Shown one piece after another: positions 29,629 through 47,137 of a DNA stretch of 64,000 nt. Within the stretch, counting starts at the first letter, position 1. Every line of letters starts with the position of its first letter. Under the pieces are notes generated by a model. The model saw nothing but the letters and a program-made list of their open reading frames with translations. It ran no database searches and was not told the DNA's origin. The position numbers were made by a program, and so were the translations under genes. Source of the DNA: Oceanicoccus sp. KOV_DT_Chl (GTDB lineage: Bacteria > Pseudomonadota > Gammaproteobacteria > Pseudomonadales > Dasaniaceae); contig NZ_FQLF01000005.1 of NCBI RefSeq assembly GCF_900120175.1, forward strand, positions 126,501-190,500, written 5' to 3'.

Positions 29629-30852
29629 TCAACATCGCTTAAAAATCAACGAGGTATTGATACCACCAAACGCAAAGTTATTACTCATAATATATTCTGT
29701 ATCAATATGGCGCGCCTCACCCATTATATAATCCAAATCGCCACAAGCCGGGTCAATATTCTCCAGATTTTTTGTCGCTGCAAACCAATTATCCTGCATC
29801 ATTTTCAAGCTCAGCCAGGCCTCTATGGAGCCACAGGCACCCAAGGAATGCCCCAGATAAGATTTCATGGAACTGATCGGGGTTTTATTGGCAAACACAT
29901 GCTGGGTTGCCGTTGATTCAGCTACATCACCACGATCAGTGGCAGTGCCATGGGCACTAACATAACCGATCTGCTCGGCACCTAAACCCGCATCTGCCAA
30001 ACTTTGCTCCATGGTGACTTGCATAGTCTCAGCTTGCGGCTGGGTAATATGGCTGCCATCCGAATTACAATGAAAGCCAACAATCTCCGCGAGGATAGTG
30101 GCGCCACGGGCCTTGGCGTGCTCCAGCTCTTCCAGCACTAATGTAGCGGCACCCTCACCGATTACCAAACCATCCCGATCGCGGTCGAAGGGACGTGGTG
30201 AAAGCTCAGGGGTATCGTTAGCAGTACTGGTTGCAAATAAAGTATCAAAAACTGCTGCCTGGGTAGCATCCAGCTCTTCAGCACCACCCGCTACCATCAT
30301 GGTTTGCATACCGTATTTAATCGCTTCATAGGCATACCCAATACCTTGGCTGCCAGAAGTACAAGCGCTGCTAGTTGTTATCACCCGCCCCTTCAAACCA
30401 AAATGCACACCGATATTCACCGGCGTGGTATGCGCCATCATTTTGATATAGGTATTGGCATTGATGCCTTCCATCTTATCGTTAAGCAGCATATTGCCAA
30501 AGTCACCAATAGCTTTTGGCGTGCCCGACGAAGAACCATAGGATACCCCCATGGCACCACTTTTAATTTCCGGGTCATCCAGTAAACCGGCCTGGGTTAA
30601 CGCCTGCTCGGTCACGGTAGTCGCCATTTGCGCTACCCGCCCCATACTTCTTAATATTTTTCTATTGTAGTGTGGCGGTGGTACAAAATGCGTAACAGGG
30701 CCCGCCAAACGTGTCCGCAAATCTAGATAGCGATCCCATTCATCCATGCGGGCAATACCGGTGTTACCCGCTTCGATATTACGCTTAAACGTTTGCCAAT
30801 CATCGCCCATAGAAGTGATTGCCGACATACCTGTAACTACTACACGTTTCAT
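29629..30852 (-). CDS. Beta-ketoacyl-ACP synthase (ApeR-like), APE cluster
   Basis: 407 residues. A KAS-type ketosynthase for chain extension; the family uses Cys-His-His. Here Cys164 lies in TSSACTSGSQGIGYAY, His301 in SAHGTATDRGD and His335 in SYLGHSLGACG, so it should be active. The ketosynthase start [16 protein letters not shown] is typical of FabF-like proteins. It is the last gene of the APE run and its ATG overlaps the ketoreductase stop (TAATG). Confidence 0.9.
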   Translation of the reverse strand: MKRVVVTGMSAITSMGDDWQTFKRNIEAGNTGIARMDEWDRYLDLRTRLAGPVTHFVPPPHYNRKILRSMGRVAQMATTVTEQALTQAGLLDDPEIKSGAMGVSYGSSSGTPKAIGDFGNMLLNDKMEGINANTYIKMMAHTTPVNIGVHFGLKGRVITTSSACTSGSQGIGYAYEAIKYGMQTMMVAGGAEELDATQAAVFDTLFATSTANDTPELSPRPFDRDRDGLVIGEGAATLVLEELEHAKARGATILAEIVGFHCNSDGSHITQPQAETMQVTMEQSLADAGLGAEQIGYVSAHGTATDRGDVAESTATQHVFANKTPISSMKSYLGHSLGACGSIEAWLSLKMMQDNWFAATKNLENIDPACGDLDYIMGEARHIDTEYIMSNNFAFGGINTSLIFKRC

Positions 30853-31603
30853 TAATACATTCCGCCATTAACTGAAATTACTTGCCGGGTGATATAAGCC
30901 GCACCCTCTGAACAAAGATATGCTACCAAACTAGCCACTTCTTCCGCTTGCCCTACCCGCCGCAAGGGGATCATTTAAGCGCTTCCTCAACCGGCGCATC
31001 CGTTGTCATTTCTGTTTCGATAAGTCCAGGCGCTACACAATTAACTGTAATCTTACGTTTGGCCAACTCTAACGCCAGCGCTTTGCTGGCACCGATGATA
31101 CCCGCTTTGGAGGCACTGTAATTGACCTGTCCGCGATTACCCATCACCCCGGAAACCGATGACAGGGTAATGATTCGACCAGCGGCTCGCCGTCTGACCA
31201 TGGGCATCACCAGCGGTGATAACACATTGTAAAAACCATCAAGATTGGTGTGAATAACGTTATCCCATTCTTCATCAGTCAATGCCGGAAACGCATTATC
31301 CGCAGTGATGCCGGCATTACAAACAACACCGTAATAAGCGCCGTGCGCAGCGACATCGGCTTCTAGCACGTTGCGTGTACTTTCACGCTGACTGACATCA
31401 AATTGTAGCAAGCGCACTGCTCGGCCCACCGCCGCGATTTCAGCCATCACCTGTTCCGCCTCCGCCACACCGCTGCGACAATGCAGGACAATATTAAAAC
31501 CATCTTGCGCTAATTTAATCGCAATAGCTTTACCAATACCGCGGCTGGAACCTGTGACTAAAATTGTTTTTTCTTCTGCCATAACAAACTTTTTCTCAAT
31601 CAT
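30852..31603 (-). CDS. 3-ketoacyl-ACP reductase, FabG-like (ApeQ-like), frame broken by one base
   Basis: The frame starts at 31603 (ATGA overlap with the dehydratase gene) or at the in-frame ATG 31582, which matches FabG ([21 protein letters not shown]). It runs normally through [13 protein letters not shown] (Rossmann loop), [26 protein letters not shown] with catalytic Ser-Tyr-Lys, and stops after VEEALK. Adding one base at the T run 30974-30976 continues the frame as [20 protein letters not shown] and on to INGG-like VISVNGGMY, ending at the next gene start. The restored length is about 250 residues. An error in the sequence or a recent mutation is possible. Confidence 0.9.
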
Positions 31604-32034
31604 TGTGGTTGATAAACATTAAGTCTGGCGCTGGCAACCTCGGCATCGCCATTGAGGTAAATACTGCAATCAAAAACACCTAACTCATCATGCTGATACG
31701 CCCTCTCAACAGTAACGGTTAACGTTTCACCCAAACCAAAATGGCTAGCATGGGCAGTATACTTACGACTGCCCAATAAAAACCCTAACCGTACATCTTC
31801 TCCCGCTTGCCGTGCAATCACTCCCGCCCATGCGGCCACGGCTTGCGCCATATACTCAATCCCAACCCAAGTCGGCACACCTATATCACCATCAAGAAAT
31901 AAACTGTGCGCAGTGATATCAACCTCTGCAATTAAACGCTCCGCAGTCTGATTGATAACACGATCGAGCAAACTCATGTGACCAGAGTGTGGCACCAATT
32001 CATCCACGGTATATTGACTGACTGTATTATTCAT
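31600..32034 (-). CDS. Hotdog-fold 3-hydroxyacyl-ACP dehydratase (ApeP-like)
   Basis: 144 residues. The start VDELVPHSGHMSLLDRVI carries the hotdog His of FabZ/FabA-like dehydratases, and PTWVGIEYMAQAVAAWAGV is the central helix. In the APE pathway such a protein would remove water from 3-hydroxy intermediates to form the conjugated double bonds. The stop overlaps the ketoreductase start by four bases (ATGA). Confidence 0.88.
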   Translation of the reverse strand: MNNTVSQYTVDELVPHSGHMSLLDRVINQTAERLIAEVDITAHSLFLDGDIGVPTWVGIEYMAQAVAAWAGVIARQAGEDVRLGFLLGSRKYTAHASHFGLGETLTVTVERAYQHDELGVFDCSIYLNGDAEVASARLNVYQPQ

Positions 32035-45644: not shown

Positions 45645-46419
45645 ATTGTTGCAAGTTCCTTATAAAATATTTTTCTAAAAACTGACTTAAATGACGAGAA
45701 GCTAACGAAACATTACCTTCCGACTCTGCGAGGAATGGCTTAACATCAATCACCTCTCCAAATTGAATATTCATATTAACCAAACCTTGTTTTGGTATTT
45801 GATACCATTTTTCACTTTTGGTTAACGAACTCGGACTTAATGAAATAGTCACTGGCGTTACATTTTTCTGAGCCCGCAATGCCATATTGGCAGCACCACG
45901 CTGCAATTTTATTGGCTGCCCCGGGGTTGAACGAGTACCTTCAGGAAAAACCAACAAGCTCTCCCCCCGTACCAAAATATCAACACAATCCTCAAGCAGA
46001 ACCTGAGGATTATCATTGCTAATATATCCTGCAGATGAAACTACTCCCCCCAAGTAAAAATTATTCCATAAGGATTGCTTCACAATGCAATCCATTTTTG
46101 GAAAAATCGAAATCAAAACAACCACGTCGATCAAAGATGGGTGATTTGCGATCAACAGTAAACCTTCGTTTTGCGGTAGATCAGCCAATCCTTTTAATTT
46201 AACTCTTAGGACGCCACTATATTGCATCAATGCCACAAATAAGCGAAAGCCCCAATGGATCACTTTGCGCGCCAGCTGCTGTTGAACTGACTTTTTTGGC
46301 GAGCACAATCTCAGTAACGGAAATACAAATACCGCCAGGCATAAGCCACCAATACCAAAACAAGAAAAACAAAAACCGGTGGCCACTAAACGCCAATAAT
46401 AATTCAGTTTAACTAGCAT
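45625..46419 (-). CDS. 1-acylglycerol-3-phosphate acyltransferase-like protein (PlsC type, ApeD-like)
   Basis: About 264 residues from the ATG at 46419, which overlaps the end of the preceding gene by 11 bases; the longer reading to 46626 lies inside that gene. Membrane segment near the start (FCFSCFGIGGLCLAVFVFPLL), then the acyltransferase motif NHPSLID (HX4D type) and FPEGTRS, the glycerolipid acyltransferase signature. It may add the polyene acyl chain to a lipid carrier. Confidence 0.88.
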   Translation of the reverse strand: MLVKLNYYWRLVATGFCFSCFGIGGLCLAVFVFPLLRLCSPKKSVQQQLARKVIHWGFRLFVALMQYSGVLRVKLKGLADLPQNEGLLLIANHPSLIDVVVLISIFPKMDCIVKQSLWNNFYLGGVVSSAGYISNDNPQVLLEDCVDILVRGESLLVFPEGTRSTPGQPIKLQRGAANMALRAQKNVTPVTISLSPSSLTKSEKWYQIPKQGLVNMNIQFGEVIDVKPFLAESEGNVSLASRHLSQFLEKYFIRNLQQYEQLSN

Positions 46420-47137
46420 CTCGCCGCCACTGCCAGCCAAAACGTGCGCCTTCAAGACATTGCTGCTGACAACCCGATAATATAAATCGGATAAATTCCA
46501 GCGCGTGTGGAAAATCTGCTTTAACGCCTGGATCCTCAGCATCCATCGATAGTGATATCGACATACCACCATCACTTTTCCCGAGTACAAAAGCCGCAGC
46601 GTAATGCACAGGATTCCCATCCTCAAAGTTTGCTAACGATGCGGGTAATGGCTCATCAGCAATAACCAACATCACTTTATCACTTTGTCCGGACGCTATA
46701 ATCGCCGCACATTCCATAAACGCTGATTCAAATCCATCGACACCACCCGCTACCGCAGTGGTTATAGAACGATCATTATTCGCTATCGAGTACAAACCGG
46801 AAGCCGTATTATGAACAGACATACTGAAGGCTGTTGGTGAAATCAATTCGGAGGTAGTCAATGCCTGCAACAAAGTCACTGTACGCGCTAACTCACCATG
46901 GCGGGAACAAAAAACAGTTCGGATAGGCTCATCTGCACACTGGTTAGCCACCAGCAGCGCCATTCGGCTCAACGGACTGAGCCGCCGCCTAAACATCGCG
47001 GGCAAAAACGATACATCGGGTTTGGCTTGAGCACCAATACTGATTTGACCCTGTGCCCACCGCTCCCAACTGTCACGAGTGTCGAGTCCAGGAGCCCAGG
47101 CCGACCAGCTCTCAAGTGTGGCACTTAACGCGCTCAT
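46409..47137 (-). CDS. Beta-ketoacyl synthase N-terminal-like, chain-length-factor type (ApeC-like)
   Basis: 242 residues, only a shortened ketosynthase-like domain. Fits the 'beta-ketoacyl synthase chain length factor' proteins of APE clusters: FRRRLSPLSRMALLVANQC, FCSRHGELARTVTLLQAL and SVHNTASGLYSIA are recognisable. No Cys-His-His triad, so likely a non-catalytic partner for a ketosynthase. It is the first gene of the minus-strand APE run; upstream is a 470-base gap to the divergent TonB receptor. Confidence 0.82.
   Translation of the reverse strand: MSALSATLESWSAWAPGLDTRDSWERWAQGQISIGAQAKPDVSFLPAMFRRRLSPLSRMALLVANQCADEPIRTVFCSRHGELARTVTLLQALTTSELISPTAFSMSVHNTASGLYSIANNDRSITTAVAGGVDGFESAFMECAAIIASGQSDKVMLVIADEPLPASLANFEDGNPVHYAAAFVLGKSDGGMSISLSMDAEDPGVKADFPHALEFIRFILSGCQQQCLEGARFGWQWRRDAS

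Follow-up and report, generated by a model that had tools for sequence, protein, structure and literature searches.

A rare sulfotransferase gene between apeM and apeN in an aryl polyene cluster of Oceanicoccus sp. KOV_DT_Chl, and a possible sulfated pigment

Introduction

Aryl polyenes (APEs) are a familiar group of yellow pigments found in bacterial membranes. Does a sulfotransferase gene situated inside an APE cluster belong to the pigment pathway, and what would the enzyme modify? The question was raised by a locus of Oceanicoccus sp. KOV_DT_Chl, a stretch of 64,000 nucleotides (contig NZ_FQLF01000005.1, positions 126,501 to 190,500) that is called the window below and carries an APE cluster on the minus strand at 29629-47137. 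An initial annotation had described this cluster as complete, with an ammonia lyase, an O-methyltransferase and a sulfotransferase as added parts. Based on the comparisons reported here, the sulfotransferase is a genuine and rare addition to an APE cluster, and its homologue occupies the same slot in one other cluster, which comes from a different bacterial family. Sulfation of the pigment is proposed tentatively.

Identity of the Cluster

Twenty successive reading frames ran from 47137 down to 29629 in the order of the E. coli apeC-apeR genes, with the ammonia lyase gene inserted between J and K and the sulfotransferase and methyltransferase genes inserted between M and N. The Pfam series from C to J was Ketoacyl-synt_2, Acyltransferase, two PP-binding, a membrane protein, an AMP-binding/ApeI-like fusion, Glycos_transf_2 and Lip_A_acyltrans. 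From the lyase to R it was Lyase_aromatic, 4HBT_2, LolA_3, MMPL, Sulfotransfer_3, Methyltransf_2, DUF3261, ketoacyl-synt (two frames), ApeP-like, adh_short and ketoacyl-synt. The hallmarks of an APE core were present, namely ApeO with ApeC, ApeR, two acyl carrier proteins (ACPs), a ligase, the ApeI and ApeP dehydratases and a ketoreductase, as was the set for lipid attachment and export (ApeD, G, J, K, L, M and N). The ketosynthases were ApeO and ApeR, besides the chain-length-factor-like ApeC, and the ApeI dehydratase was fused to the ligase.

The gene kinds listed in the initial annotation were recovered at their coordinates on one strand, except that the membrane protein and the LolA-like protein gave matches only below the Pfam cut-offs and were assigned by homology to other clusters. 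The same gene order was found in dozens of other clusters, which ruled out a chance arrangement, and the ApeR of the window grouped in a tree with the ApeR of other APE clusters. The earlier assignment to the APE type is strongly supported by the Pfam models (ApeI-like, ApeP-like and PF13723) and by the gene order.

The Sulfotransferase and Its Relatives

The sulfotransferase scored 92.6 bits against PF13469 (Sulfotransfer_3), the cut-off being 27. It contained the motifs PRTGST at residue 112 and TRRN at residue 267, which may bind 3'-phosphoadenosine-5'-phosphosulfate (PAPS). Two PDB entries, 2zq5 and 2z6v, presumably mycobacterial STF enzymes, matched along nearly the whole protein and were less than 30% alike as judged by eye. 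When a profile was compared with the PDB, these two were found at E values of 5.8e-36 and 1e-32, respectively, whereas the polyketide-synthase sulfotransferase 4gox was found at only 0.47.

Some match to the sulfotransferase was given by 42 of 145 kin genomes, the window's own included. One genome (G054) stood out, with 33% identity and an E value of 5e-65, the next being 7e-40. Its gene lay in an APE contig in the order lyase, K, L, M, sulfotransferase, methyltransferase, N, O, P, Q, R. Searched against named genomes, the window sulfotransferase alone yielded no relative, and a two-row alignment yielded one, on the same contig, JAUXDF010000058.1 (region L074/L129), from the Spongiibacteraceae metagenome-assembled genome CSMAG_2844, which belongs to the same order as the genome of the window. 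Among 369 genomes of the class, again including the window's own, 11 matched the two-row profile at E <=1e-30. Three of the ten other class matches (L130, L131 and L132) were examined; they spanned about 4 kb each and contained no APE genes. In L130 (1-2634), the sulfotransferase of this family formed the C-terminal part of a 2538-residue frame, following an apparent carrier protein and thioesterase recognized by eye.

ApeP matches were obtained in 112 of 390 genomes of the order, and regions were taken around the 60 strongest, the window's own excluded; 20 further APE regions made up a class sample. Across these 80 regions the family profile detected a single sulfotransferase frame, that of L074, itself part of the profile, and the earlier view of the gene as an added part was borne out. 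Of the 60 order regions, 55 had both flanks (M and O matches), as did 15 of the 20 from the class, which makes 69 besides L074; the remaining regions were cut short or contained little of a cluster.

The sulfotransferases of the window and of L074 formed one clade (support 100/100) with a long stem, and the other three sulfotransferases of the genome that were placed in the tree fell outside it. The ApeR proteins of the two clusters were likewise sisters (100/98), with an identity of 74%. Taken together, the clade and the sister ApeRs indicated that the gene was kept while its sequence identity fell to 33%. The simplest history would be one gain before the two clusters diverged, followed by retention.

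The contents of the slot were compared in the 55 order regions that have both flanks. The M and O matches lay on opposite strands in 5 of them, which left 50 comparable ones, although in 4 of the 50 the bounding ketosynthase was the ApeR match. A FAD oxidoreductase of the Pseudoalteromonas kind stood between M and O in 41 of the 50, was found elsewhere in 3 and was absent from 6, including L074; no match to it was found in the window. With this enzyme in 41 of the 50 regions, the slot appears to be the place of the tailoring genes, taken here by the sulfotransferase and the methyltransferase.

The Methyltransferase

The adjacent methyltransferase scored 516.9 bits against the FlxJ family (NF053543, cut-off 560), and a solved methyltransferase, 3dp7, matched it over residues 9-355 with 395.6 bits. 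Homologues were uncommon (4 of the 60 regions from the order, 2 of the 20 from the class), in keeping with its earlier description as an added part; the O-methylation that the same description implied was not established, the enzyme being FlxJ-like. In two regions without the oxidoreductase (L070 and L077), a methyltransferase of the same family stood before apeC. The ring methyl of flexirubin is derived from methionine and, according to the available part of PMC3992019, has so far been reported only ortho to the hydroxyl. The resemblance to FlxJ therefore suggested that a ring carbon rather than oxygen may be methylated. The enzyme may be a ring C-methyltransferase that replaces ApeB and leaves the phenol free.

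The Ammonia Lyase

The ammonia lyase, also regarded earlier as an added part, turned out to be a usual one in this order and was rejected as a novelty. Its homologue was present in 42 of 60 order regions, in 12 of 20 class regions and in a named Pseudoalteromonas cluster, and it sat between J and K wherever both were found in cluster order. The ASG of the 4-methylideneimidazole-5-one (MIO) site was kept in 54 of 56 alignment rows (2 gapped). FHGCG occupied the selectivity site in at least 51 rows; one row had YHGCG, 2 were gapped and 2 were among rows outside those shown.

The selectivity pair is SH in histidine lyases and HL in tyrosine lyases. The FHGCG of the APE-associated lyases (L069-L128 and L162-L181) was unlike the pairs known from histidine, tyrosine or phenylalanine lyases, and no substrate test of FHGCG-type lyases was apparent among the papers listed. 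Most APE clusters of the order are accompanied by this lyase group with its own FH pair, which suggests a starter derived from an amino acid, either alongside 4-hydroxybenzoate or in its place. The flexirubin lyase FlxA of Chitinophaga pinensis converts tyrosine to 4-coumarate despite a first motif resembling that of histidine lyases, as stated in the accessible text of PMC3992019. By this analogy, an amino-acid-derived aryl acrylate is a plausible starter here.

Frame Breaks in apeJ, apeO and apeQ

The cluster had been called complete without mention that apeJ, apeO and apeQ each carry a frame break, and as sequenced not all of the core genes were open. The crossings were read by tblastn of relatives' proteins on the window, the four best relatives being used for each gene. 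The apeJ gene changed frame once near 41785-41791 and apeQ once near 30965-30974 (four of four proteins in both cases). A single change in apeO near 33074-33083 was read from one protein of the four, that of L074, and the other three aligned with just the second frame. In the relatives, the best ketosynthase match was a single frame of 386-422 residues in 59 of 59 regions (in 8 identical to the ApeR match), and the ketoreductase match was a single frame of 240-406 residues, also in 59 of 59. ApeJ is encoded there by one gene or two (a single frame in 11 of 53), and the break in the window falls within the acyltransferase part.

It is improbable that the three breaks are genuine and that the strain, with a decaying cluster, makes no APE, even though three breaks occurred in one 17.5-kb pathway and just one, in proA, was noticed across the remaining 46 kb of the window. 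This proA (2027-3282, minus strand) was split over two frames near 2870. It is needed for proline synthesis, no other proA above the family cut-off was found in the genome, and G005 and G009 have the gene whole. Frames shorter than 600 residues were also over-represented genome-wide for TonB receptors: among the matches listed, a count by hand gave 10 of 52 here, against 3 of 50 in G005 and none of 48 in G009 (10/52 against 3/98 in the two kin genomes, Fisher p 0.0015). The remaining frames of the cluster were open. Because proA was broken likewise and short TonB frames were in excess, assembly or sequencing indels were considered likelier than decay. The three breaks are most likely assembly errors, and the cluster is therefore probably whole in the living strain. 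They lower the confidence that it is complete and working as read, and the assignment by homology is unaffected. A further likely break was noticed in another sulfotransferase of the genome (contig C2, 2042293-2043317), which appeared as two adjacent stretches with short frames of 225 and 245 residues.

Proposed Pathway and Product

A scheme was drawn in which the observed gene content, order, homologies and sulfotransferase slot are combined with a predicted starter, methyl site, sulfation and sulfation target; its core steps were taken from papers on the E. coli, Acinetobacter and flexirubin enzymes. In the parts of PMC8253772 and PMC8358021 available to us, the ligase loads an aromatic acid, the polyene is made by ApeO-ApeC, and throughput is increased by ApeR; ApeD and ApeJ are the presumed enzymes of lipid attachment for the polyene acid, with ApeG, L, M and N as its presumed exporters. 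Here, the ligase would load onto an ACP either 4-hydroxybenzoate or a lyase-made aryl acrylate from tyrosine or similar. Extension with malonyl units would be carried out by ApeO-ApeC and ApeR, reduction by ApeQ and dehydration by ApeI and ApeP, and the FlxJ-like enzyme would methylate the ring. ApeK would release the polyene acid, ApeD and ApeJ would attach the polyene to lipid, and ApeG, L, M and N would carry the lipid-bound polyene to the outer membrane. The sulfotransferase would move sulfate from PAPS to a free hydroxyl, either the ring phenol or one of the lipid-anchor sugar, resulting in an anionic APE. PAPS can probably be made, given a match to adenosine 5'-phosphosulfate (APS) kinase in the genome (E 3.2e-68). 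About 2.5 kb from this match is a further member of the sulfotransferase family, and the stretch (contig C7, 301192-305238) may be a second sulfation locus.

It was proposed as the best explanation, at just short of an even chance, that the locus specifies a modified APE bearing sulfate on its ring phenol or lipid anchor, the cluster being probably whole in the strain. Somewhat more tentatively, the sulfotransferase and the flexirubin-type methyltransferase may form a tailoring cassette of a sulfated-APE cluster, replacing the FAD oxidoreductase usually found between apeM and apeN. Since C-methylation would leave the phenol free and the two genes are adjacent, the ring phenol is slightly favoured over the lipid sugar as the target.

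Several observations weigh against a sulfated pigment. These searches turned up only two APE clusters bearing a sulfotransferase. In all, 9 places in the genome matched the sulfotransferase query, a sign that other substrates are commonly sulfated there. The structure model of the sulfotransferase, built from the two-row alignment, had a mean predicted local distance difference test score (pLDDT) of 33, and the frame breaks, if real, would abolish the pathway. Within the genus, an ApeP match was found in one of six other genomes (G003, on a 3.7-kb contig), which shows that possession of the cluster varies; none came from three additional genomes of the family. An empty site was sought through the flanking TonB-receptor and kinase proteins, which had many matches in kin genomes, and no site was placed.

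Some of these points are shared by a reading in which the APE cluster is a standard one and the sulfotransferase of the operon acts on another envelope lipid or glycan. The family is large, with several other members in the genome, and the near absence of the gene from the scanned APE regions (L074 alone among the 80) implies that APE synthesis does not need it. We regard such a target as rather unlikely, in view of the slot between transporter and methyltransferase being kept in two clusters of different families, the tight spacing of the genes within the operon and the clade separate from the three other sulfotransferases. In curacin-type polyketide synthases, sulfation of a beta-hydroxyl and loss of CO2 lead to a terminal alkene. 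A similar chain ending by the sulfotransferase and thioesterase, giving a terminal-alkene polyene, would be consistent with both genes sharing one operon, with the related region of L130 that follows an apparent carrier protein and thioesterase and with other related regions lying within Planktothrix genes annotated as type I polyketide synthase. It is nevertheless very improbable, as the polyketide-synthase structure 4gox was so much weaker a match to the profile than the STF structures and ApeD and ApeJ, thought to attach the polyene acid, are retained.

A sulfated APE would be a negatively charged antioxidant pigment in the outer membrane. Given a conserved sulfotransferase at the tailoring position, the pigment is predicted to shift in mass, and its chemistry would be linked to the charge of the surface. 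The expectation of the initial annotation that the product may differ from the known pigments is a fair inference from the gene content. Judged from titles and the openings of abstracts, no sulfated APE is described among the papers listed on aryl polyenes with sulfotransferases, sulfation or ammonia lyases, and polyene clusters are not mentioned in the accessible part of PMC9002059.

Gene Layout

The frames are listed in the table below. Overlaps of 4-20 bases had been claimed for most joins; with the likelier starts they were found at 9 of 17 (C/D 11, D/E 20, G/HI 4, lyase/K 8, K/L 4, L/M 11, M/sulfotransferase 8, N/O 4 and P/Q 4), and the remaining joins were mostly gaps of 0-21 bases. The overlaps between the two apeJ frames (91) and the two apeO frames (37) and the 118-base gap before R are frame breaks rather than gene joins. 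No sign of foreign base composition was seen, the G+C content being 45.1% in the cluster, 47.3% and 45.4% in the left and right flanks and 45.8% in 800 kb of the contig. A TonB-dependent receptor gene (47578-49551, plus strand) is divergent from the cluster head; the best match of its product among 10 other genomes (66%) was in G004, of the same genus and itself without an ApeP match.

Table. Reading frames of the APE cluster in the window
Feature	Position	Strand	Evidence and remarks
apeC-like chain length factor (half-size ketosynthase)	46409..47137	-	PF13723 206 bits
apeD-like PlsC-type acyltransferase	45625..46419	-	PF01553 70.6 bits; start ATG 46419 likelier than longest frame
apeE-like acyl carrier protein	45390..45644	-	PF00550 25.7 bits; LDSIDA motif
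apeF-like acyl carrier protein	45124..45372	-	PF00550 47.1 bits; LDSIDA motif
apeG-like membrane protein	44551..45117	-	Position and homology to relatives; only PF04279 (IspA), under cut-off
apeH-apeI fusion: AMP ligase and ApeI-type dehydratase	42812..44554	-	PF00501 51.9 bits; PF22818 59.7 bits
apeJ first frame: glycosyltransferase and beginning of acyltransferase	41719..42807	-	PF00535 72.7 bits; frame change
apeJ second frame: remaining acyltransferase part	41117..41809	-	PF03279 26 bits
Aromatic ammonia lyase	39522..41111	-	PF00221 540.9 bits; ASG (MIO) and FH motifs
apeK-like thioesterase	39104..39529	-	PF13279 42 bits; start ATG 39529 likelier
apeL-like LolA-related protein	38457..39107	-	PF19574 19.5 bits, cut-off 23 not reached; position
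apeM-like MMPL/RND transporter	36125..38467	-	PF03176 44.1 bits
Sulfotransferase	34960..36132	-	PF13469; start GTG 36132 likelier than TTG 36186
FlxJ-like methyltransferase	33871..34938	-	NF053543; PDB 3dp7
apeN-like DUF3261 protein	33244..33870	-	PF11659 87.9 bits
apeO first frame: N-terminal part of ketosynthase	33017..33247	-	Start ATG 33247; no Pfam match; frame change
apeO second frame: most of ketosynthase	32037..33053	-	PF00109, PF02801; Cys and both His motifs
apeP-like dehydratase	31600..32034	-	PF22817 79.8 bits
apeQ first frame: most of ketoreductase	30971..31603	-	PF00106 179.8 bits
apeQ second frame: C-terminal end of ketoreductase	30852..30974	-	Relatives' proteins cross frames
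apeR-like ketosynthase	29629..30852	-	PF00109 137.1 bits; NF006587 710 bits

Comparison with Known Systems

The C-R genes of the window are identical in kind and order to those of the E. coli CFT073 cluster apeA-apeR (PMC8253772, as far as its available text goes). That cluster has apeA and apeB at its head, and its gene table there contains no ammonia lyase or sulfotransferase. In the window, by contrast, nothing resembling apeA or apeB lies in the interval that separates C from the divergent TonB gene, the ligase and ApeI are fused, and the FlxJ-like methyltransferase stands between M and N. The cluster of Pseudoalteromonas sp. HL-AS2 (NZ_CP133572.1) shares the C-R order and has an "aromatic amino acid ammonia-lyase" between J and K. 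It differs in that its transporter and DUF3261 genes flank a FAD oxidoreductase gene, without a sulfotransferase or methyltransferase there, and in its separate ligase and dehydratase and separate glycosyltransferase and acyltransferase genes.

In comparison with the flexirubin system of Chitinophaga pinensis (PMC3992019, in part), the lyase scored 337.4 bits against an FlxA cut-off of 700, and the methyltransferase fell just below its FlxJ cut-off. Of the dialkylresorcinol genes darA and darB, the only match was ApeR to DarB (20.7 bits, cut-off 550), and the genome was not searched for them. A xanthomonadin-like cluster is described in the accessible part of PMC3949708 with a different starter route.

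The closest counterpart is that of Spongiibacteraceae CSMAG_2844, which has the nearest ApeR and sulfotransferase and the same gene order as the window from the lyase to R. Its contig ends within the lyase gene, leaving C-J outside it, and apeO and apeQ are both unbroken there. Seen against these systems, the locus is a known kind of cluster with one rare, conserved tailoring gene.

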